Shown here piece after piece: positions 9,148 through 21,450 of a stretch of 21,579 nucleotides of DNA. The stretch covers positions 1 to 21,579 of the IMG/VR virus record IMGVR_UViG_3300025767_000149; one strand, given 5' to 3'. The stretch's first letter is position 1; every line of letters begins with the position of its first letter. The notes below the pieces were generated by a model, which had not been told where the DNA came from, did not search any database, and worked only from the letters and a program-made list of their open reading frames with translations. The position numbers and the translations under genes were made by a program. The stretch comes from a virus.

Positions 9148-10842
9148 ATGATGAAATACAAATCTAACCTAAACCCTATGTTCCGAAGCAAGTTTTCGGA
9201 AGACATCTTTAACCACAAGTATCGGCATGAGGGTGCAGAGACTTGGGCATCCCTGGCCAAGACTCTTGTAGCAGATGTGATGTCTGTTGCAGGTGATGCT
9301 GTCTCTAGGGAGGACAAGGATCAACTCGAAGAGTACATCCGAGACCTTAAGTTTATTCCAGGTGGGCGCTACCTGTATTACGCTGGTCGTCCTAATAAGT
9401 TCTTCAATAATTGTTACCTGCTTCGTGCGGAAGAGGATACCCGTGAAGATTGGGCAAACCTGTCATGGAAGGCAGAGTCCTGCCTGATGACTGGTGGTGG
9501 CATTGGTGTTGACTACTCTGTCTATCGTGCAGAGGGAACACCCATCCAACGCACAGGTGGTCAAGCATCTGGTCCTATCCCCAAGATGAATATGATCAAC
9601 GAGATTGGTCGTCGGGTTATGCAGGGTGGCTCCCGTCGTTCTGCAATCTATGCCTCGTTGAATTGGAAGCATGGTGACATTGATCAGTTCCTCAAAGCCA
9701 AAGACTGGCAGGCTATGCCTGTAGGTAAGACAGGAAAAAGCTTGTGGGATATTAAGCAGGAAGACTTTAACTTCCCTGCACCCCTTGACATGACAAACAT
9801 CTCTGTCAACTACGATACAGAATGGTTGTTGAACTTTTGGCAGACAGGTGATGTTGGTAAGGTCTTCAAAGAGAATGTCCGTCAGGCCTTGAAGACAGCA
9901 GAGCCTGGTTTCTCCTTTAACTTCTTTGACAAGGAACGTGAAACTTTGCGTAACGCTTGTACTGAAGTTACATCTGAGGATGACAGTGATGTTTGCAACC
10001 TTGGCTCTTTGAACTTTGGTCGTATTGAAAGCATTGAAGAACTCCGTGATGTTGTACGTCTTGGCACAATGTTCTTGATCTGTGGTACACTGAAGGCTCA
10101 ACTGCCCTACGACAAAGTCTACCTAACTCGTGCAAAGAACCGTCGTCTGGGTCTCGGGTTCATGGGTGTGCATGAGTGGCTGATTAAGAAGGGTTACAGC
10201 TACGAGGTTACGCCAGAGTTGCACCAGTGGTTGTCTGTTTACAAGGGGGTTTCTGATAATGTTAGTAAGTCCTTTGCGGATCGCCTCTCTGTTACTCGGC
10301 CTGTAGCTAATCGAGCTATTGCACCGACAGGGTCTATCGGTATCCTTGCTGGGACTAGCACTGGTATCGAACCTATCTTTGCTGTTGCATACAAGCGGCG
10401 TTACCTGAAGGGTAAGGATAAGTGGGCCTATCAGTACGTTGTTGACAGCGCAGCACAGGAACTTATTGAGTTCTATGGGGCTAACCCTGAGAACGTCGAG
10501 AGTGCTTTAGATCTGGCAGATGACTACGAGCGTCGTATTAAGTTCCAGGCAGATGTACAAGACTACGTGGATATGTCCATCTCCTCCACTATCAACCTTC
10601 CAGCCTGGGGGTCTAAGCTTAACAATGAAGACACTGTGGACACGTTTGCTAACACTCTTGCCAAGTACGCACACCGTCTCAGAGGCTTTACTTGTTACCC
10701 TGATGGGGCACGTGGTGGTCAGCCTCTGACTTCTGTACCCTATGCTGAGGCAGTGTCTAAGTTGGGTGAAGAGTTTTACGAGCATGTAGAGACCCATGAC
10801 ATCTGTGATATCAGTGGTACTGGGGGTTCCTGCGGGGTATAG
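9148..10842 (+). CDS. nrdJ: Class II (adenosylcobalamin-dependent) ribonucleotide reductase, monomeric NrdJ/RTPR type
   Basis: Reduces ribonucleotides to deoxyribonucleotides using a B12-derived radical. In 564 residues it shows the finger-loop cysteine FNNCY (C89), the catalytic NACTE (N269, C271, E273), a partner cysteine in DVCNLGSLNF (C283), APTGSIGILAGTSTGIEP, and two C-terminal cysteines (C553, C562) that would relay reducing power. There is no NrdB-type small subunit gene nearby and no ATP cone, which fits the compact class II form; dependence on host cobalamin follows. ATG 9148 touches the AGAGGAA ribosome binding site; ATG 9151 has better spacing and may be the real start. B12-type RNR is a hallmark of the Cobavirus/SIO1 group. 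Confidence 0.93.
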   Translation: MMKYKSNLNPMFRSKFSEDIFNHKYRHEGAETWASLAKTLVADVMSVAGDAVSREDKDQLEEYIRDLKFIPGGRYLYYAGRPNKFFNNCYLLRAEEDTREDWANLSWKAESCLMTGGGIGVDYSVYRAEGTPIQRTGGQASGPIPKMNMINEIGRRVMQGGSRRSAIYASLNWKHGDIDQFLKAKDWQAMPVGKTGKSLWDIKQEDFNFPAPLDMTNISVNYDTEWLLNFWQTGDVGKVFKENVRQALKTAEPGFSFNFFDKERETLRNACTEVTSEDDSDVCNLGSLNFGRIESIEELRDVVRLGTMFLICGTLKAQLPYDKVYLTRAKNRRLGLGFMGVHEWLIKKGYSYEVTPELHQWLSVYKGVSDNVSKSFADRLSVTRPVANRAIAPTGSIGILAGTSTGIEPIFAVAYKRRYLKGKDKWAYQYVVDSAAQELIEFYGANPENVESALDLADDYERRIKFQADVQDYVDMSISSTINLPAWGSKLNNEDTVDTFANTLAKYAHRLRGFTCYPDGARGGQPLTSVPYAEAVSKLGEEFYEHVETHDICDISGTGGSCGV

Positions 10843-13753: not shown

Positions 13754-13784
13754 GGGGGCTACCTTTCGGTGGCCCCCTCTTTTT
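13754..13784 (+). terminator. Strong intrinsic terminator between convergent arms
   Basis: Stem GGGGGCTACC (13754-13763) with GGTGGCCCCC (13768-13777), ten pairs including one G-U, a TTTC loop and TCTTTTT at 13778-13784. It ends the + strand arm. The minus-strand operon's last stop (TAA, complement of 13783-13785) lies in the T run, and the same hairpin, though with a poor U tract, can fold in the opposite transcript. Confidence 0.93.
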
Positions 13785-16700
13785 ATCTGCCTAGCTGTTG
13801 AACATCCGCCCTGATGATCTCTGCCCAGGTCATAATCTTTTCCCTGCGGGCTAGTTCATCCTCGATGGTGTCAGAGTCAACAATGAAGTCTCTTGCACTG
13901 TCAAACTGTTGACCAAACTGTACCTGAGAAAATGCTCTGACAGCATCATCATAGATGTCACCTGAGTAACCTCTTGACAGTTTTGCTTCCTCCATGACGT
14001 ACAGGTTTCTAAGGTAGCCCGATGCAGCCCTTGGGTCGTCCCGTCTGAGTTGATTCCAGAGGTGTTCAGTCTCCTCAACTTCCCTAAGTATCTCAGCCGT
14101 AACAAAGCCAGTAAACATGTTACGTCTCTGTTCCAAGTTCTCAACTTCATTGTATGGTACACCACCAGCAAGAGCGCCTGTTTGACCTACACCCTCTGCC
14201 CAGACTTGAAACCTGTCGTTAAGACTCTCAGACAGTCTTTTCTCTACCACCCAAGCAACGGCAGGGTTAGGTACTTTACTTCTTGAGTAGAGGTCAAACT
14301 CTCTGATGTTGAGTCTGGCCATCTCTCTCTGGATTTCAGTAGGTCTAGGTCTAGAACTAAAACCAAACTGGCGGGACAGGGGGTTGAATGCCCCAACAGG
14401 CTGACCTCCACTAAAGGGAGAGAAGGTCGGGATGTCATTCCTACCATTCAGAGTCTGTGTCTGCTGACGAATACTCCAGTCGGGTAGCATTCTACTGGCT
14501 CTCATCTGCAGGGTGTCAAGGTAGTTCTCTTCACCAGCCAGTGTACCTACAATCACATCACCTGCAGTAGCCTCACCAGCAAGGCTGGGCCTGTCAGTCG
14601 GACCCATGAACACATCACGAGTGAAGGGTGTAGGAGCAGAAGCAGGATCAAGCATACCCTGGAAGTCTCTTGCGATAGTTAGCGGGTAGGTGAATGTGGC
14701 TGCAATGTCACCGAGGAATCTCTGGAGATCAGGACTAAACTCTTTCTCCTCCACACTCTCAACAACAGCGTTGACGAAGCTGGTGTCAAAGCCAAGGTCA
14801 CCCATGCCTGCCGCAATCTCCATCATCTCTGATCCGACATTCTCAGGGTAGGGCATCTCATTACGCCAGCGATACAACAAGTCACCGATAAAGAAATTGG
14901 CTAACCAGGGACCAGCGGTACGGGAGATGTCTACAACACCTGTCTCTGTTTCCCGTTCATCATAGAAGACTTCTCCCTCGGTGGATGCAGCGGTGCTGTA
15001 ACCCAGGAGGACCAGAGACATACCAGTCATCTGACGGGCAAAACGATCCTGACCAGTCTTAAACTGATCACCGAACATAATATTGTCCAACCTGTTCAGG
15101 CCACCCGTAGCTACACCAATGAGGGTGTAGTCGTTAATGTGTTCAAGGTGGTTGGCAATATAACGGGGGAAGGGTACACCAACACCAGCGGAGATAACAA
15201 ACGGAAGCTTCTGGTGTGCAGACTCCAGGGCTGAAGCTGCCCTGCCGAAGGCACTCTCATCACCGTAGTAGCTACGCTGAAAGGTAAAACGACGTGCATC
15301 GTCCATAGCACCATCAACGATCTGCTGGGGTAGATCATCCAGTCGTCTACCTGTGGCTAGGAATTCTCTGATGTTTGTACCAATCTGAGGGTTGTTCACT
15401 TCTCTGAGTCTTCTATCCAGACCAGAATAAAAGCTGGCCTGTTTGAACACGCTGTCTGTAGCACTGTTCATAGTGTTGACGAATCTACCAATCCGAGCAG
15501 CAAAGCTCTGACCTTCCATAGCCGCCTCTGCTCTGCCTGTCTCAAAGAAAAGATTTCTGTATTCGAGGGGGTAGGATTCCTCAAGAAGACCTCTAGTGAT
15601 ACGAGCCTCATCCCGAGTCAGAGTCATACCCCTCAGGGTGGAAAGACTACCCCCCATCCAGTTTCTCTGTACCTGATCCCCAACCTGTCTGCCATAAGTA
15701 ACACTGGCAAAGTTCTTCCAGAACTGGTTGGACATGTCGATGAGGAGGTTGCCAGAGGAGGTCACAGTGTTGGCCATAGTGGTGCCAAGCTGAGAAGTCA
15801 TGAAGGCAATACGGATACTGTCTGCTTCCTGAAGACCCCTGTACATGGTTCTAAGAGGATTGGTTGTGTCGTAGGTGTCTGCCACAATGGTAGCCACAGT
15901 CCTGTCGTTCAGGCTGGACAGACCACGGCCACTGACATCAGCCAACTCTTCTGTTGCTGAAGCAAAGTCCTGCGTAGCCTGGGTTACAGCCCGTTCTGCT
16001 GCACCACGACCAGCACGGTCTGCGGCTCTGGCAATAATACTTGCTTCACCAAGGACTCGACCAGCACGAGACAGGTCCGACAGGTATATGTAAGAAAACT
16101 CTTCTCGGGACAGATTATATTTTGCCCTAATGTCATTCAATACTTCAGGGTCAATACTTTCGTTTTGAATACCCCGAACAACAGCGGATGTAATTCTTTC
16201 ATTCGGCCCAACACTAAGACCCCTAGTACCTAACTCATCAAGAAGATCGAGGGTTGCCGCAGTTACACCCCGAAGCGTGTCAACAGACAGGGACTGAGTG
16301 ATGTTGCGGTCTGTGTTTGTCGCACCGAGAATTTCTCTGCGTAGTCTGTTACCCTCTTCAACAAACTCTTTGCTGAGGGGATCAAGACGACGACCCGACT
16401 CCCTTGCTGACAAAATGTTTGCCACCTCAATAGCACGATCTGCCGCAGCCTGGGAAGCCTCTGCGGGTGCAGCAGACAGTCTCTCATTGGCAGTCTGTCT
16501 CGCAGCAGCACGGGCCTGCTGTCCTGCAGACTCACGAGTAGCAAACTCCTCCACCACACGACGCTGAGTTCTCACATCCAAGGCTCTGGTTGCAGACCCA
16601 AGGGCACCGCCAATAGTGGCACTGATTACTGCATCACGCAGGAGGTCACCTGTTCCGTACTCCTGGTCTGTGGTCTCCTCACGAATCTCACCCAGCATGG

Positions 16701-17301
16701 CACCCTGACCAGCGCCGATGGCACCTTCTGCAGCAGCCGAAGCAACAGCCCCACGTACTGCACCACCCCGTACCGTGCCAGCAACAGTATCCTGCACAGC
16801 ACGGGTAGCCACACCACGGTGAACAAGGTCAGCAATCTGCGCTCTGACCATAGCCTGTGCAGACTTGCCAGCCGCCCTTGCAGCCAACTTAGAACCTACG
16901 CCCCAACCACCTGTGGCAACAGTAGCACCAGTGGAGGGAGAGGTGATAAAGGCAGAGATGTAGTCAATGGCACCATCAACCATGCCCGTCCCACCACCAG
17001 CCGATCTGTCAAAGGCTGTGATTAAACCCCCGAATGCCTGCAGTTCTCTCTCAGAGGTACGTTCCCTGTCCCTAACATAAGACAAGTCCTGAAGTGCAGT
17101 ATATTCATTGGTAGACTGCCAACGCATGTGTTCCACAAAACGTTCTGCAAGACCCTGGGGTCCAGCCTCTGCAATCTCCTCCCTAGACATACCGTACCTA
17201 GACCCAGAAAAGAACCGAACAAGATCCCTCTGGAAGTCTGGGTTATCAGCCAGGTCTATGAACTTTTTTTCTTCTACTTCTTCTTCCAGATAAGAGGTCA
17301 T
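13783..17301 (-). CDS. Large internal virion / DNA-ejection protein, 1172 aa (T7 gp16-position)
   Basis: The largest protein in the window and the last gene of the minus-strand virion operon. Size, position and composition suit the large internal core protein of podoviruses that helps carry DNA through the cell envelope. It has an acidic N-terminus (EEEVEEKKF), a Gly/Ala-rich stretch at about 95-240 with small-residue repeats (GGTGMVDGAI, ATGGWGVGSK, GGALGSATRA) that could insert in membrane, an Ala/Arg-rich helical region to ~320, and a long helical remainder. No murein-hydrolase domain is present; that is a separate gene (18864-19583). ATG overlaps the upstream stop (ATGA). Arg is mostly AGA/AGG. 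The name is by analogy; sequence homology to gp16 was not tested. Confidence 0.75.
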   Translation of the reverse strand: MTSYLEEEVEEKKFIDLADNPDFQRDLVRFFSGSRYGMSREEIAEAGPQGLAERFVEHMRWQSTNEYTALQDLSYVRDRERTSERELQAFGGLITAFDRSAGGGTGMVDGAIDYISAFITSPSTGATVATGGWGVGSKLAARAAGKSAQAMVRAQIADLVHRGVATRAVQDTVAGTVRGGAVRGAVASAAAEGAIGAGQGAMLGEIREETTDQEYGTGDLLRDAVISATIGGALGSATRALDVRTQRRVVEEFATRESAGQQARAAARQTANERLSAAPAEASQAAADRAIEVANILSARESGRRLDPLSKEFVEEGNRLRREILGATNTDRNITQSLSVDTLRGVTAATLDLLDELGTRGLSVGPNERITSAVVRGIQNESIDPEVLNDIRAKYNLSREEFSYIYLSDLSRAGRVLGEASIIARAADRAGRGAAERAVTQATQDFASATEELADVSGRGLSSLNDRTVATIVADTYDTTNPLRTMYRGLQEADSIRIAFMTSQLGTTMANTVTSSGNLLIDMSNQFWKNFASVTYGRQVGDQVQRNWMGGSLSTLRGMTLTRDEARITRGLLEESYPLEYRNLFFETGRAEAAMEGQSFAARIGRFVNTMNSATDSVFKQASFYSGLDRRLREVNNPQIGTNIREFLATGRRLDDLPQQIVDGAMDDARRFTFQRSYYGDESAFGRAASALESAHQKLPFVISAGVGVPFPRYIANHLEHINDYTLIGVATGGLNRLDNIMFGDQFKTGQDRFARQMTGMSLVLLGYSTAASTEGEVFYDERETETGVVDISRTAGPWLANFFIGDLLYRWRNEMPYPENVGSEMMEIAAGMGDLGFDTSFVNAVVESVEEKEFSPDLQRFLGDIAATFTYPLTIARDFQGMLDPASAPTPFTRDVFMGPTDRPSLAGEATAGDVIVGTLAGEENYLDTLQMRASRMLPDWSIRQQTQTLNGRNDIPTFSPFSGGQPVGAFNPLSRQFGFSSRPRPTEIQREMARLNIREFDLYSRSKVPNPAVAWVVEKRLSESLNDRFQVWAEGVGQTGALAGGVPYNEVENLEQRRNMFTGFVTAEILREVEETEHLWNQLRRDDPRAASGYLRNLYVMEEAKLSRGYSGDIYDDAVRAFSQVQFGQQFDSARDFIVDSDTIEDELARREKIMTWAEIIRADVQQLGR

Positions 17302-18347
17302 CTGTTAAGCTCTTCATCTATGATAGAGTTAAAATCCCCAGGCTGCGTAGCCCCAGGAGTCCCACCTGTCATAGCAGTCATCGCATCTCCCATATCACTG
17401 TCACCTGGGACTGGGATTGCTACAGGTTCAACCGTTGACAGAGTTTCGAAGAAGGCTTGAGGGCCATCCTCAAAAAGTGTTGGGAGAACTTCGTTAATTT
17501 TAGCTGCATCTGGAATAGTCTGGTATGCCTGCACGACAGGGTTGGTAAAGTAACGGATGGCAGTCACTTCATTCATCCGACTGCCACCTGGAGTACTAAT
17601 AGCATCAACAGCAGCGTCGGTTAGGTTGTTGACCATAACTCTTAGATCAGCAGGGGCATTAGCAGCAAAACTAAAACCACTTTCCCCGCTAACAATAAGG
17701 TTAGGTCCAAAAGTTCCCTGCAGCCTACGCATAATCCCGTCTGTAACTTTCTTTTCTAAGTCGAGGTCAACTTCAGTTGTGCTAAGAGAGATGTCAAAAG
17801 GGGGAAGACGGTCGCTGTACCTACTGGGTGTATACAAGTCTTGAAGGCTTTCAATATCCTGGTTATTAAACACAGACTCAACGATAGCAAGAGTGGTCTG
17901 CTCAGGATTATTCAAGTCAGCACCACTTTCGAATACACCAAGAATTGTGGCAGCAACAGTGTTAGTGTCAGCCATGTCACCCAGTTGACGGGCTACCTCT
18001 TCGTTTACAGCAGAGATTTTTTCTGGGGAGTAGTTGTTCTCTTTAGCCTGTGAGAGGATTAGATCAAGTTGTCCAGATCTATACAAGGCTTCTGAGACAG
18101 GTCTATTGAAACCGAGGGCAACACCAGAGTTGATGCCCTGTTGGATAACTTCATCTTCTGCTCGTCTTTGTAGAAGGATGGGGAGAACAGCCTGACGGTA
18201 ACTGTCAACCCTAGCCTGCTCAATAGCACGACGACGGTCTTCTCGATCCTCTTCACGAATACGGCGAGCTTCCTCACGATCCATCTCTCTGTCACGTCTC
18301 TCACGGATGCCCTGCATCCCGAGGTAAAGACCTTCCCACATACCCAT
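17298..18347 (-). CDS. Probable internal virion protein, 349 aa, with charged coiled-coil start
   Basis: Begins MGMWEGLYLGMQGIRERRD and continues with a very charged helix of alternating Arg and Glu/Asp (about 13-50) that should form a long coiled coil or single helix. The rest mixes helical and strand segments, with a Gly/Thr/Pro-rich end (GGTPGATQPGD). No known domain. A strong ribosome binding site (AAGGAGAG) precedes the start. It is coupled to the 1172-residue gene by an ATGA overlap, and is one base from the gene before it. By position it belongs with the ejection or portal-to-tail proteins. Confidence 0.7.
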   Translation of the reverse strand: MGMWEGLYLGMQGIRERRDREMDREEARRIREEDREDRRRAIEQARVDSYRQAVLPILLQRRAEDEVIQQGINSGVALGFNRPVSEALYRSGQLDLILSQAKENNYSPEKISAVNEEVARQLGDMADTNTVAATILGVFESGADLNNPEQTTLAIVESVFNNQDIESLQDLYTPSRYSDRLPPFDISLSTTEVDLDLEKKVTDGIMRRLQGTFGPNLIVSGESGFSFAANAPADLRVMVNNLTDAAVDAISTPGGSRMNEVTAIRYFTNPVVQAYQTIPDAAKINEVLPTLFEDGPQAFFETLSTVEPVAIPVPGDSDMGDAMTAMTGGTPGATQPGDFNSIIDEELNR

Positions 18348-18348
18348 A

Positions 18349-18861
18349 TCAAGCTCTCCTTGCCATCAAGCCAACAGGCTGTTCTTCGGTCATCATCTCA
18401 GGCTCTTCCTCTACCTGAGGTCTCTCAGCCTTCATAGCAGGGGCTACAGGTTCAATACCCATCTTCTGCATCTTCTTCTCTGCAAGGGTAGCATTGCGGG
18501 CATAGGAGCGTTGCTGTCTGATCTCTTTGTTGTCGAAACCTTCCTCGTATTCTACACCCAGAGCATCAGCAGTAGACTTGATGTACTCGTGGATAACAGG
18601 TGCAATGATTAGGCTGACATCAACAGTGTGAATGCCACCCATTACAGCACTACGCAGGATACCCTCAACAAGCGTAACTAGATCCACCCCAACCTCAAGG
18701 AAGTACATAGCGTCTTCCATACGGTCAGGATCAGTCAGTCTGTCCAGGTGAATCTGCAGAGCCTGCTCAGGATCAACAACCTCAGGAGGTCTCTCGTAGG
18801 GAGCATTCCGAGGGGTTGTGGTCAGAGACTGGCCAGGGATAGGTCTGTCAAACATTGTCAT
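18349..18861 (-). CDS. Small virion-operon protein, 170 aa
   Basis: The N-terminus is Pro/Thr-rich (PIPGQSLTTTPRNAP), the middle is a hydrophobic helical domain (DAMYFLEVGVDLVTLVEGIL, then HTVDVSLIIAPVIHEYI) and the end is acidic and Pro-rich (ERPQVEEEPEMMTEE), probably flexible. I recognise no family; similar layouts occur in small structural proteins of marine podoviruses. It starts two bases after the murein hydrolase stop and ends one base before the next gene's start, so it belongs to the same transcript. A role in assembly of the internal core is inferred from position only. Confidence 0.7.
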   Translation of the reverse strand: MTMFDRPIPGQSLTTTPRNAPYERPPEVVDPEQALQIHLDRLTDPDRMEDAMYFLEVGVDLVTLVEGILRSAVMGGIHTVDVSLIIAPVIHEYIKSTADALGVEYEEGFDNKEIRQQRSYARNATLAEKKMQKMGIEPVAPAMKAERPQVEEEPEMMTEEQPVGLMARRA

Positions 18862-18863
18862 TG

Positions 18864-19583
18864 TTATTGCCCCGAGAAATCGTTGTAGTATGTGCTTAGC
18901 CTAGTTCCAAATTTATCACCAGGGTTGTAATTACCGCCAGAGCGTACAAACTGACGCATACCGCCAATACCACCAAGGTGTGCTACAGCACGAAGACCAT
19001 CTCGGGTATAACCCTGATCAAGAAAACCACTTCTTTCGATGGCACGATCAATATCTGCCATATGCCAAGCAAAGACATCATCCTGCAGCCTAGGGTCTAG
19101 ACGAAATTCTTCAGTGCTAAAGGATGCACCTGTATCATTCATATACTCTTCAAGACGGTCATCAGTAAACTGATAGCGTCCAGTTACATTCTGTTCCTTA
19201 CCACCACTTGTGGCTTGAATCTGGATATCGTAGCGATTGCTACTTTCCCTCATACCAAGTCTGTCAGCAAAGTCTGTAACCTCACCGAAGTCAAAAGTGC
19301 CAGAGGGTCTGTCAGAGGGTTCCCGATCAACCTCTGTAAGGTATTCTTCGATAGCATCCGCAGGATTACTCTGACGGATGTTTGAGATGTACCCAGATAT
19401 AAGGTTTGCAATACCCTCATCAGAGTCTTCAGAGACCTGCTGCATTGCTTCCTGTCTTCTACGAACAAGACCCTGACTTGCTTGGTCGATAAACTTAGAA
19501 GCAGTGCGACTCTCTGGCTTTGCTATATTCTCTTGAATAATGTCTGCCATCTCAGAAGCTTTTTTGTAGAGATTCTTATACAT
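18864..19583 (-). CDS. Virion-associated murein hydrolase (lytic transglycosylase-like)
   Basis: Probably opens the peptidoglycan during DNA entry. In 239 residues, ~1-95 are a helical, polar lead. Then a lysozyme/SLT-like domain: LGMRESSNRYD with catalytic Glu113, TGRYQFTDDRLEEY (134-147), DPRLQDDVFAWHM (163-175), DGLRAVAHLGGIGG (195-208) and GGNYNPGDKFGTRLS. The E-S-S, G-x-Y-Q-F and A-H-L-G-G-x-G-G blocks are the usual markers. In T7 this domain is fused to gp16; here it is a separate gene ahead of the large ejection protein. There is no signal peptide, as expected for a virion part. A TAGGATGA ribosome binding site precedes the start. Confidence 0.85.
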   Translation of the reverse strand: MYKNLYKKASEMADIIQENIAKPESRTASKFIDQASQGLVRRRQEAMQQVSEDSDEGIANLISGYISNIRQSNPADAIEEYLTEVDREPSDRPSGTFDFGEVTDFADRLGMRESSNRYDIQIQATSGGKEQNVTGRYQFTDDRLEEYMNDTGASFSTEEFRLDPRLQDDVFAWHMADIDRAIERSGFLDQGYTRDGLRAVAHLGGIGGMRQFVRSGGNYNPGDKFGTRLSTYYNDFSGQ

Positions 19584-19593
19584 TCATATCATC

Positions 19594-21450
19594 CTAGAAG
19601 ATGTCAAAGATGCTGCCACTGTCACTGCCACCACCACCGAACAAGAGGTCGGTCATGAATGCTGACCTGTAAGTAGACTCTCTGCTGTCAATCTGATTTC
19701 TCACAGCCTCCAAGTCTTTGTCTGCAAGGAGGATAGCCAACTGTCTGTCAAGACCACTCTGCTGTGCAGTGAAGGAGTAGCTCATGATGTCACGCTCCCT
19801 CTGCCAGATCTGAGCCAGGGATGCAGACGACAGGGCATTGACAGTCTTTGCAAACTCCATGTTGGCTTCGTTCTGAGCAGCGGTGTTAATGGTTGTAACA
19901 TTCTGACGCCACTGGGCATTGGCCTGCTCAACGATCAGAGAGTTCTGAGCATTGAACAAGTCTCTCTGCTGTCTCAGTTCTGCATTGAACTGACTTACAG
20001 CATTGGTCTGCCCAGCGTTGAACTGGTTGACTGCGTTAGTCTGAACAGCATTGAACTGAGAAGTCTGGGAGGCAAGGCTCTGGAAGAACTGTTCTGTCTG
20101 GTTTTCACTAGCAGCATTGAACTGGGCGGCAGCATTACGTGCAGCCTGGTCTGTGAACAACGACTGAATGTTCTGCTGAGTCTTGAACAACTCTGTCTGC
20201 TGTTGATTAGACAGATTGGTCAGGTCCATCTGCAGGAAGTTCTGAGCATTCTGAACAGCAGCCTGTTGACGATTGTTCAGGTTTGACATGTCAAGGTTTG
20301 CAAGAGCAGAGGCTTCTGCAAGAACCATAGCCTGTCTATTGTTCAGATTCTGTAGATTGGTTGTGTTAGCAATACGGCTATTCTCAAGAGCCACCTGCTG
20401 TTCAGCAGTAAAGTTCATGTTTGCTACATCAGCAATACGTGCAGCATTTGCTACGCGAGACTGGAATGCCTGATCAAACTCTAGGCCAATAAATTGTGCC
20501 CGCTGTTGTGCAGCAAGCATAGCACGTTGCTGTCTGTTTGACAAGTTCTGAACTTCAAACTGAGCAACAGTCTGAGCATCTGCCGCAGCAACAGGCAGAG
20601 CAGACTCCATAGCAGCCTGCACAATAGCCTGACCAGCCATACTGGATGCACCCAGACCCCTAGCAGCCATAGTGGCTGTAGCTGCCCTCATAGCTCCTGC
20701 AGCCCAGGAGGGAGTAGCACCACCCTCGAACTGATTCATCAGGCCTTCGAGTTGACCCTGTACAGTAGCCTGCTTGGAGGGGGTAGCTTCTGCAGCCTGA
20801 ACCTGTTCTGCAAAGGATGCAGCCTTAGCAGCATCAGCAGCACCAGTAATCAACTCACCATCCTGGATCTGTCTCTGGACAGGATTGTCCATCAGGATTG
20901 CAGTACCCTGAGCAGCCTCTAGGTTGGCTACAGAAGTCTGAGTCTGTTGTGCAGCGGTTACTTGAGCCTCAGGAGCCACCTGACCCTGAACAGCCTGTAG
21001 TGCTGCAGTTTGTGCCTGAACCTGGGGTGCTGCAGTCACAGCCTGCATAACAGACGCAGGGGTAGGAATAGCAACAGGTGCCTGAGCAGCAGTAGGGGCA
21101 GTAGTGGCAGTGATCGTTGGGGCAGGTGCAGCAGTCTGACCAGCACTGGGTGTGGTTATTAAACCCTGAGTTACATCCATAGGAGTAACCTGTGCAGTCT
21201 GCAGGGGTTGAGAAGCCTGTAGTGCCAGTTGTTGCTGACCCTGCTGTAGCTGCTCAACTGAACCACCAGTCTGAAAACCACGGATAGGGTTGTCCCCAAC
21301 CATCTGCTTCATAGTCTCCTGGTACTTACCCATACGAGAAGCAGCAGCAGGGTTAGCAGCCAGAAACTGGTCAACACTCTGTTGGTCTGCTGGCCCACTA
21401 TAACCAAACATACGAGCAAGGATACTTGCAGACTGTTGTGGTGTCATCAT
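19594..21450 (-). CDS. Internal virion protein, 618 aa, with 22-residue helical repeats
   Basis: Residues 1-60 are a short ordered start; ~60-230 are Gln/Ala/Thr/Pro-rich and probably disordered; ~235-300 are Ala/Gly/Met-rich helix (SWAAGAMRAATATMAARGLG); and 302-543 consist of eleven consecutive units of exactly 22 residues, often beginning NL(N/S)N(R/Q)Q or containing QFNA. The end is a charged helix and a Gly-rich FGGGGSDSGSIFDIF tail. A 22-residue (2 x 11) period indicates long right-handed helical bundles. By place and size it may match the T7 gp14/gp15 ejection proteins; this is inference. First gene after the tail-gene end at 21486, with start MM at 21450. Confidence 0.75.
   Translation of the reverse strand: MMTPQQSASILARMFGYSGPADQQSVDQFLAANPAAASRMGKYQETMKQMVGDNPIRGFQTGGSVEQLQQGQQQLALQASQPLQTAQVTPMDVTQGLITTPSAGQTAAPAPTITATTAPTAAQAPVAIPTPASVMQAVTAAPQVQAQTAALQAVQGQVAPEAQVTAAQQTQTSVANLEAAQGTAILMDNPVQRQIQDGELITGAADAAKAASFAEQVQAAEATPSKQATVQGQLEGLMNQFEGGATPSWAAGAMRAATATMAARGLGASSMAGQAIVQAAMESALPVAAADAQTVAQFEVQNLSNRQQRAMLAAQQRAQFIGLEFDQAFQSRVANAARIADVANMNFTAEQQVALENSRIANTTNLQNLNNRQAMVLAEASALANLDMSNLNNRQQAAVQNAQNFLQMDLTNLSNQQQTELFKTQQNIQSLFTDQAARNAAAQFNAASENQTEQFFQSLASQTSQFNAVQTNAVNQFNAGQTNAVSQFNAELRQQRDLFNAQNSLIVEQANAQWRQNVTTINTAAQNEANMEFAKTVNALSSASLAQIWQRERDIMSYSFTAQQSGLDRQLAILLADKDLEAVRNQIDSRESTYRSAFMTDLLFGGGGSDSGSIFDIF
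19822..20547 (-). repeat. Eleven tandem degenerate 22-residue (66-base) coding repeats
   Basis: Within the 618-residue gene, residues 302-543. Units start with NLSNRQ, NLNNRQ, NLNNRQ and NLSNQQ at multiples of 22, and later units carry QFNA at the matching half-period (11). At least eleven units in a row keep phase with no insertion or loss. Two further 22-residue units can be drawn downstream (to about residue 587) with weaker likeness. DNA-level identity is low, so these are old repeats held by protein structure. Confidence 0.8.

Follow-up and report, generated by a model that had tools for sequence, protein, structure and literature searches.

A protein encoded on a viral contig carries a long tract built of 11-residue units, which are paired into 22-mers in the first half of the tract, and its relatives keep this register while their tracts range from 120 to 780 residues (n = 261), a more than sixfold range that equals some 10 to 70 hendecads. 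We tentatively favour the reading, to which we give close to an even chance, that this protein forms a modular helical shaft or tube belonging to the ejection module of HMO-2011-like podoviruses. Only in a few model phages is it understood how short-tailed phages move their DNA through the envelope of Gram-negative cells, and HMO-2011-like podoviruses are an abundant or even dominant group of marine phages that ranks with the most common viruses of the ocean. Hendecad proteins and phage proteins with 11-residue units are already known; the present family stands out by an unusually clean evolutionary record of unit gain and loss.

The stretch of DNA analysed, hereafter the window, is a viral contig of 21,579 bases whose gene complement is that of HMO-2011-like podoviruses. 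Its plus strand carries genes for DNA polymerase A, ThyX, ribonucleotide reductase, PhoH and MazG, named from their open reading frames, and its minus strand carries the structural genes. The ribonucleotide reductase reading frame (9148–10842, plus strand) encodes 564 residues, compared with 647 in HMO-2011. The repeat protein itself has 618 residues and is encoded at 19594–21450 on the minus strand, as are all features described below. It consists of a variable N-terminal part, a conserved helical domain, the 11/22-residue tract and a helical C-terminal domain. The conserved domain directly precedes the tract (residues 237–301; 20548–20742), stands out by its near-invariant columns in alignment A1 (PxWAxGAxR...RGLxxSSxA...SALPIAxxDA) and provided an anchor for measuring tract length. 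The C-terminal region (residues 544–618; 19597–19821), in which AlphaFold2 predicts helices, has been replaced in certain relatives by different domains.

Relatives of the repeat protein were found in 27 phage records and in hundreds of viral contigs. The best-matching annotated homologues, from Roseobacter phages CRP-1, CRP-2, CRP-13 and CRP-345 and from Puniceispirillum phage HMO-2011 (64–72% identity), are all annotated as "hypothetical protein", and remoter homologues occur in Pelagibacter, Vibrio, Aeromonas, Pseudoalteromonas and rhizobial phages. No family covered the repeat in scans of Pfam and PHROG, a PDB profile search with the protein returned no credible match, and a Foldseek search with its predicted model returned no match. 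A Fumerase_C match (E = 0.002) fell below the family cut-off and was disregarded. The repeat was likewise undescribed in the literature searched, which included the passages found in a comparative study of HMO-2011-type phages (PMC9038755), most subscription papers lying outside this search.

The first-pass annotation of the window had divided residues 302–543 (19822–20547) into eleven gapless units of 22, which we could confirm. NL(S/N)N(R/Q)Q opens units 1, 4, 5 and 6, and QFNA recurs at 11-residue spacing from unit 7 onward. The period is also statistically significant, as BLOSUM-scored autocorrelation at lags 22, 11, 33 and 44 exceeded that of all 5,000 shuffles after correction for all lags tested (z = 7.7 at lag 22, 5.2 at both lag 44 and lag 11, and 4.9 at lag 33). 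The proposed 22-residue unit, however, describes only part of the tract. In residues 302–433 (units 1–6; 20152–20547) the unit is indeed 22, with a weak 11-residue component (z = 5.9 at lag 22 and 2.1 at lag 11), whereas in residues 434–543 (units 7–11, the QFNA part; 19822–20151) the unit is 11 (z = 6.1 at lag 11). At the DNA level a single short 33-nucleotide array is detectable (19982–20059; 2.4 copies, 75% match), which means that most of the repeat is old.

To follow the tract through its family, we collected homologues from phage records and from viral and genome contigs, and took as tract length the span between two conserved landmarks, the ALPIA motif on the N-terminal side of the tract and the WR position on its C-terminal side; 16 further open reading frames, in which no anchor was recognisable, were omitted. 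The resulting lengths bear out the expectation that unit number changes among relatives in steps of 22 or 11: in 260 of the 261 distinct tracts the difference from the window tract is divisible by 11, and in 249 of these it is divisible by 22 as well. The sole off-register tract (L108) has one extra residue next to the C-terminal anchor. An initial measurement that used the WR motif only had placed 165 of 175 tracts in register; the off-register cases that we inspected lacked the W and were re-anchored with hand-chosen motifs, which was a post hoc step. On a tree of the flanking domains, with the tract excluded, at least 28 changes of length class are needed, a count that is approximate given that the tree was a quick one of 158 columns.

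Whole-unit changes of this kind might arise merely from unequal crossing-over within a flexible low-complexity spacer, with no selection on register, since repeats that recombine with one another automatically yield in-register change. Such an origin would suit the longest proteins of the family. Their best repeat lag is 110 residues (~50% identical in L181), and in the longest tracts (L181, L150, L155 and L191) five 22-mers make up a 110-residue super-repeat with ~40–50% identity, which fits with the frequent length steps of 110 residues. Unequal crossing-over can give in-register changes, yet it leaves the near-absence of small indels from the tract unexplained. In the tract, 17 of the 18 step sizes correspond to whole hendecads, with one off-register case in 261; by contrast, the control region between the WR anchor and the C-terminus, where small off-register indels are common, shows 43 step sizes, of which four are multiples of 11, matching chance. 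Furthermore, the repeats of the window are too diverged in DNA for easy crossing-over, and the hydrophobic pattern of the tract is position-specific, so that we regard a passive spacer as distinctly improbable.

The first-pass annotation had also expected long helices in place of a globular fold. An AlphaFold2 monomer prediction made with 43 homologues agrees, placing long helices over nearly the whole conserved part of the protein and no beta strands, at modest confidence (pLDDT about 45–76 in the tract; pTM 0.27). AlphaFold is known to handle hendecads poorly (PMC11676326). The composition of the tracts is rich in Ala, Gln, Asn and Leu, with proline absent from 165 tracts and glycine at 1.4%. 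When family hydrophobicity was analysed on an 11/3 helix, the second harmonic reached 16.4, which is 16 times the shuffled mean and compares with a shuffled maximum of 1.5, whereas the first harmonic was at noise level (1.4 versus a shuffled maximum of 1.5). In the longest members the second harmonic rose to 16–35. On the 11/3 wheel, positions 1-5-9 and 3-7-10 form two hydrophobic faces ~170° apart, and the period-22 part of the tract shows these family-wide as two opposite stripes. Of the polar stripes between them, one carries neutral Gln, Ser and Ala with few charges (positions 2 and 6) and the other Asn and charged residues (positions 0, 4 and 8), and either stripe might face inward. In tubes of the phiX174 H type, amide and guanidinium side chains line the lumen. 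The predicted model and this pattern strongly suggest that each unit is alpha-helical, completing three turns in 11 residues and carrying its hydrophobic side chains on two opposing sides of the helix.

Hydrophobicity in the tracts is most strongly periodic at 2.2 residues and only weakly so at 3.6, which could alternatively be read as the strand alternation of a beta-solenoid with 22-residue coils, in which the Asn found once every 11 residues might stack into ladders. The second harmonic of 11/3, however, also aliases to 2.2, and a tract that AlphaFold2 predicts as helical and strandless, with so little glycine and no proline, makes a beta-solenoid very hard to credit.

Two hydrophobic faces suit a barrel, a sheet or a multi-helix bundle, without proving any of these. 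In particular, the two stripes do not prove a barrel, because P22 gp26, a known trimer with heptad power that we used as a control, likewise gives a strong second harmonic when analysed at its own period, and because phiX174 H, the positive control, shows no significant harmonic by the same measure. The gp26 control also weakened our early idea of excluding a trimer on the strength of the two stripes. In the repeat protein, no heptad signal was seen at period 3.5 or at its second harmonic, either in the window or in the long members. The two halves of the window tract lean toward opposite hydrophobic faces, and the QFNA part alone is one-faced for large hydrophobic residues (first harmonic 7.9, second 1.3).

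The tape measure proteins of siphophages also carry 11-residue units, and their lengths differ in whole blocks, for example of 44 residues (PMC3271669). The repeat protein shares with them the 11-residue unit, the whole-block length differences and an aromatic residue at a fixed register (Phe at position 10 in the QFNA part, in 62% of hendecads family-wide). It might accordingly be a capsid-internal rod, spool or tape-measure-like ruler, with a length that fits another part of the particle and with its release alongside the DNA being a by-product; a lack of correlation between tract length and host would fit such a particle-internal measure. Unlike the tape measures, which have one-faced units, the tract as a whole is two-faced, and it is encoded in a different operon. 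In the lactococcal TP901-1 tape measure, analysed as a control, the 11-mers place their hydrophobic residues overwhelmingly on one face (first harmonic 34.8, second 0.06), opposite to the pattern of the repeat-protein family. HMO-2011-type phages are moreover short-tailed, according to a description of the group, as distinct from this virus, in PMC9038755, and the tract as a helix would exceed a short tail. A ruler of tail length was judged unlikely on account of the short tails, and an internal ruler of any kind appears quite unlikely.

The repeat gene is the first of five minus-strand genes that run from 21450 to 13783 with gaps of at most 10 bases, encoding the repeat protein, a lysozyme-like protein and proteins of 170, 349 and 1172 residues. 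The lysozyme-like protein (239 residues; 18864–19583) matches PHROG endolysin family 26675 (E = 4e-11). The 170-residue protein (18349–18861), which has two hydrophobic segments by hydropathy, is a constant downstream companion of the repeat protein: its gene lies downstream of the repeat gene on the same strand at 265 of 299 loci, the other loci having none in the available DNA, and the two genes have a nearly identical distribution among phages. A PIPGxSLT motif is conserved near its N-terminus and a GLM motif near its C-terminus. The fast-evolving 349-residue protein (17298–18347), for which PHROG and Pfam scans found no homology, occupies the position of T7 gene 15 and P22 gene 20 as judged by gene order and size only. 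The last protein of the operon (1172 residues; 13783–17301) has a predicted fold resembling that of internal virion proteins, as Foldseek searches of BFVD with its AlphaFold2 model (pTM 0.67) matched such proteins from a Pelagibacter phage (E = 1.4e-7) and from a Synechococcus phage (E = 3.6e-6); several large polyvalent proteins were matched as well, TM-scores were low (0.2–0.3), and no solved structure was matched. For both the 170- and the 1172-residue protein, PDB profile searches gave nothing credible and PHROG and Pfam scans nothing usable.

With its lysozyme-like, 170-residue and 1172-residue proteins, the operon looks like an ejection module headed by the repeat gene, upholding the earlier assignment of the gene to an ejection operon, and we infer that the repeat protein is a virion protein. 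As in the ejection systems of T7 (gp14/gp15/gp16), P22 (gp7/gp20/gp16) and DEV (gp71–73), the operon ends in a very large protein of the internal-virion type; further shared features are lysozyme activity nearby, represented here by the lysozyme-like gene, and a helical character. Using hhalign, we found no homology between the repeat protein and T7 gp14, T7 gp15, P22 gp7 or P22 gp20. In the literature examined, the ejection proteins of T7, P22 and DEV are not described as variable-length hendecad arrays. The repeat protein also differs from T7 gp14, which has ~200 residues and several predicted transmembrane helices, in its greater size and in a highest 19-residue hydropathy of 1.04.

The order of genes in P22 (26-14-7-20-16) suggests a further comparison, as needle gene 26 precedes the ejection genes there in the same relative place as the repeat gene does here, and gp26 is likewise a long helical protein. 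The helical length of gp26-type needles varies between phages, to go by the title of a paper cited in PMC10925440. The repeat protein might thus form a trimeric needle or stalk that closes off the tail and penetrates the outer membrane, with a trimeric hendecad coiled coil changing in whole-unit lengths. Three relatives from a short-tract clade, the homologues in CRP-738 (L089) and CRP-235 (L092) and a third one (L211), end in a Peptidase_S74 domain. This domain, a trimerising chaperone, usually marks trimeric fibres, and together with the position of gene 26 in P22 it keeps the needle reading alive; the single main face of large hydrophobic residues in the QFNA part points the same way. However, gp26 is a heptad trimer, whereas the repeat protein has hendecads, no gp26-like heptads and no single dominant core face: the face expected of a two- to four-stranded coil is missing from the period-22 part and from all long members. 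The S74-bearing C-terminal region of the CRP-738 homologue, moreover, matches PHROG 4287, "DNA ejection protein", and with a 780-residue tract the needle would reach ~117 nm, in a phage whose tail is short. On this evidence we consider a needle unlikely. A LysM peptidoglycan-binding domain lies in the N-terminal part of the CRP-235 homologue (residues 71–110), which suggests that this protein may contact peptidoglycan.

In the helical shaft or tube that we favour, adjacent subunits would pack side by side through their two hydrophobic faces to form a rod or, if subunits are numerous enough, an alpha-barrel whose surface is rich in amides. Such a shaft would leave the virion together with the genome or before it, and guide the DNA through the envelope. 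The indel pattern suggests that only insertions and deletions of whole hendecads are tolerated, because others would rotate the faces out of contact. Two described structures provide precedents: phiX174 H contains hendecads and forms a decameric tube 170 Å long with an amide-lined lumen (PMC7354561), and DEV gp72 forms a nonameric helical channel with a lumen of 25 Å (PMC10925440). By analogy with these, and from its genomic context, the shaft may surround or guide the DNA.

Like phiX174 H, the repeat protein has helical hendecads rich in Gln and Asn, here with significant lags from 11 to 44. Unlike H, in which three hendecads are followed by heptads, it consists of hendecads throughout its far longer tract, with no heptads, and it comes from a dsDNA podovirus, whereas H comes from a microvirus. 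An hhalign comparison with H gave a homology probability of 0.4% over 14 aligned columns, and the 14-residue "NLSxQQ" match to H residues 213–226 was taken as coincidence. Our best reading is that the shaft would work like the H tube, a likeness of function for which kinship was not found. The more specific proposal, that HMO-2011-like podoviruses deliver their dsDNA through a modular alpha-barrel of bifaceted hendecad helices as a dsDNA counterpart of the H tube, is conceivable but doubtful.

The first-pass annotation had pictured a channel across the periplasm, and our data speak against the simplest form of this idea, in which channel length equals periplasm width. Two tract lengths, 164 and 219 residues, occur among phages that infect a single host strain, FZCC0040, and the tracts of SAR11 phages measure 164 and 318 residues, so tract length is not set by the host envelope alone. 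As one straight helix, the longest tract of 780 residues would measure ~117 nm, far exceeding the width of the periplasm. These same-host length differences weigh against a shaft or tube, as do the one-faced QFNA part, the S74 domain in three relatives and the lack of homology to known ejection proteins.

The geometry of the repeat protein can be read from its sequence, the 11-residue register having been kept through the many length changes, and this exact register makes the structural hypothesis directly testable. The natural series of tract lengths, in turn, allows one to ask whether shaft length matters for DNA entry.

Outside the tract, the family varies at both ends. Many homologues (L002–L081) have a variable Thr/Pro-rich N-terminal extension of roughly 400–1000 residues, which is missing from the window protein; in L039 a motif within this extension is duplicated. 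At the other end, six homologues (L082, L280, L287, L306, L316 and L326) carry an alternative C-terminal domain of ~80 residues (CWVAREVYG...KHGE) in place of the usual one.
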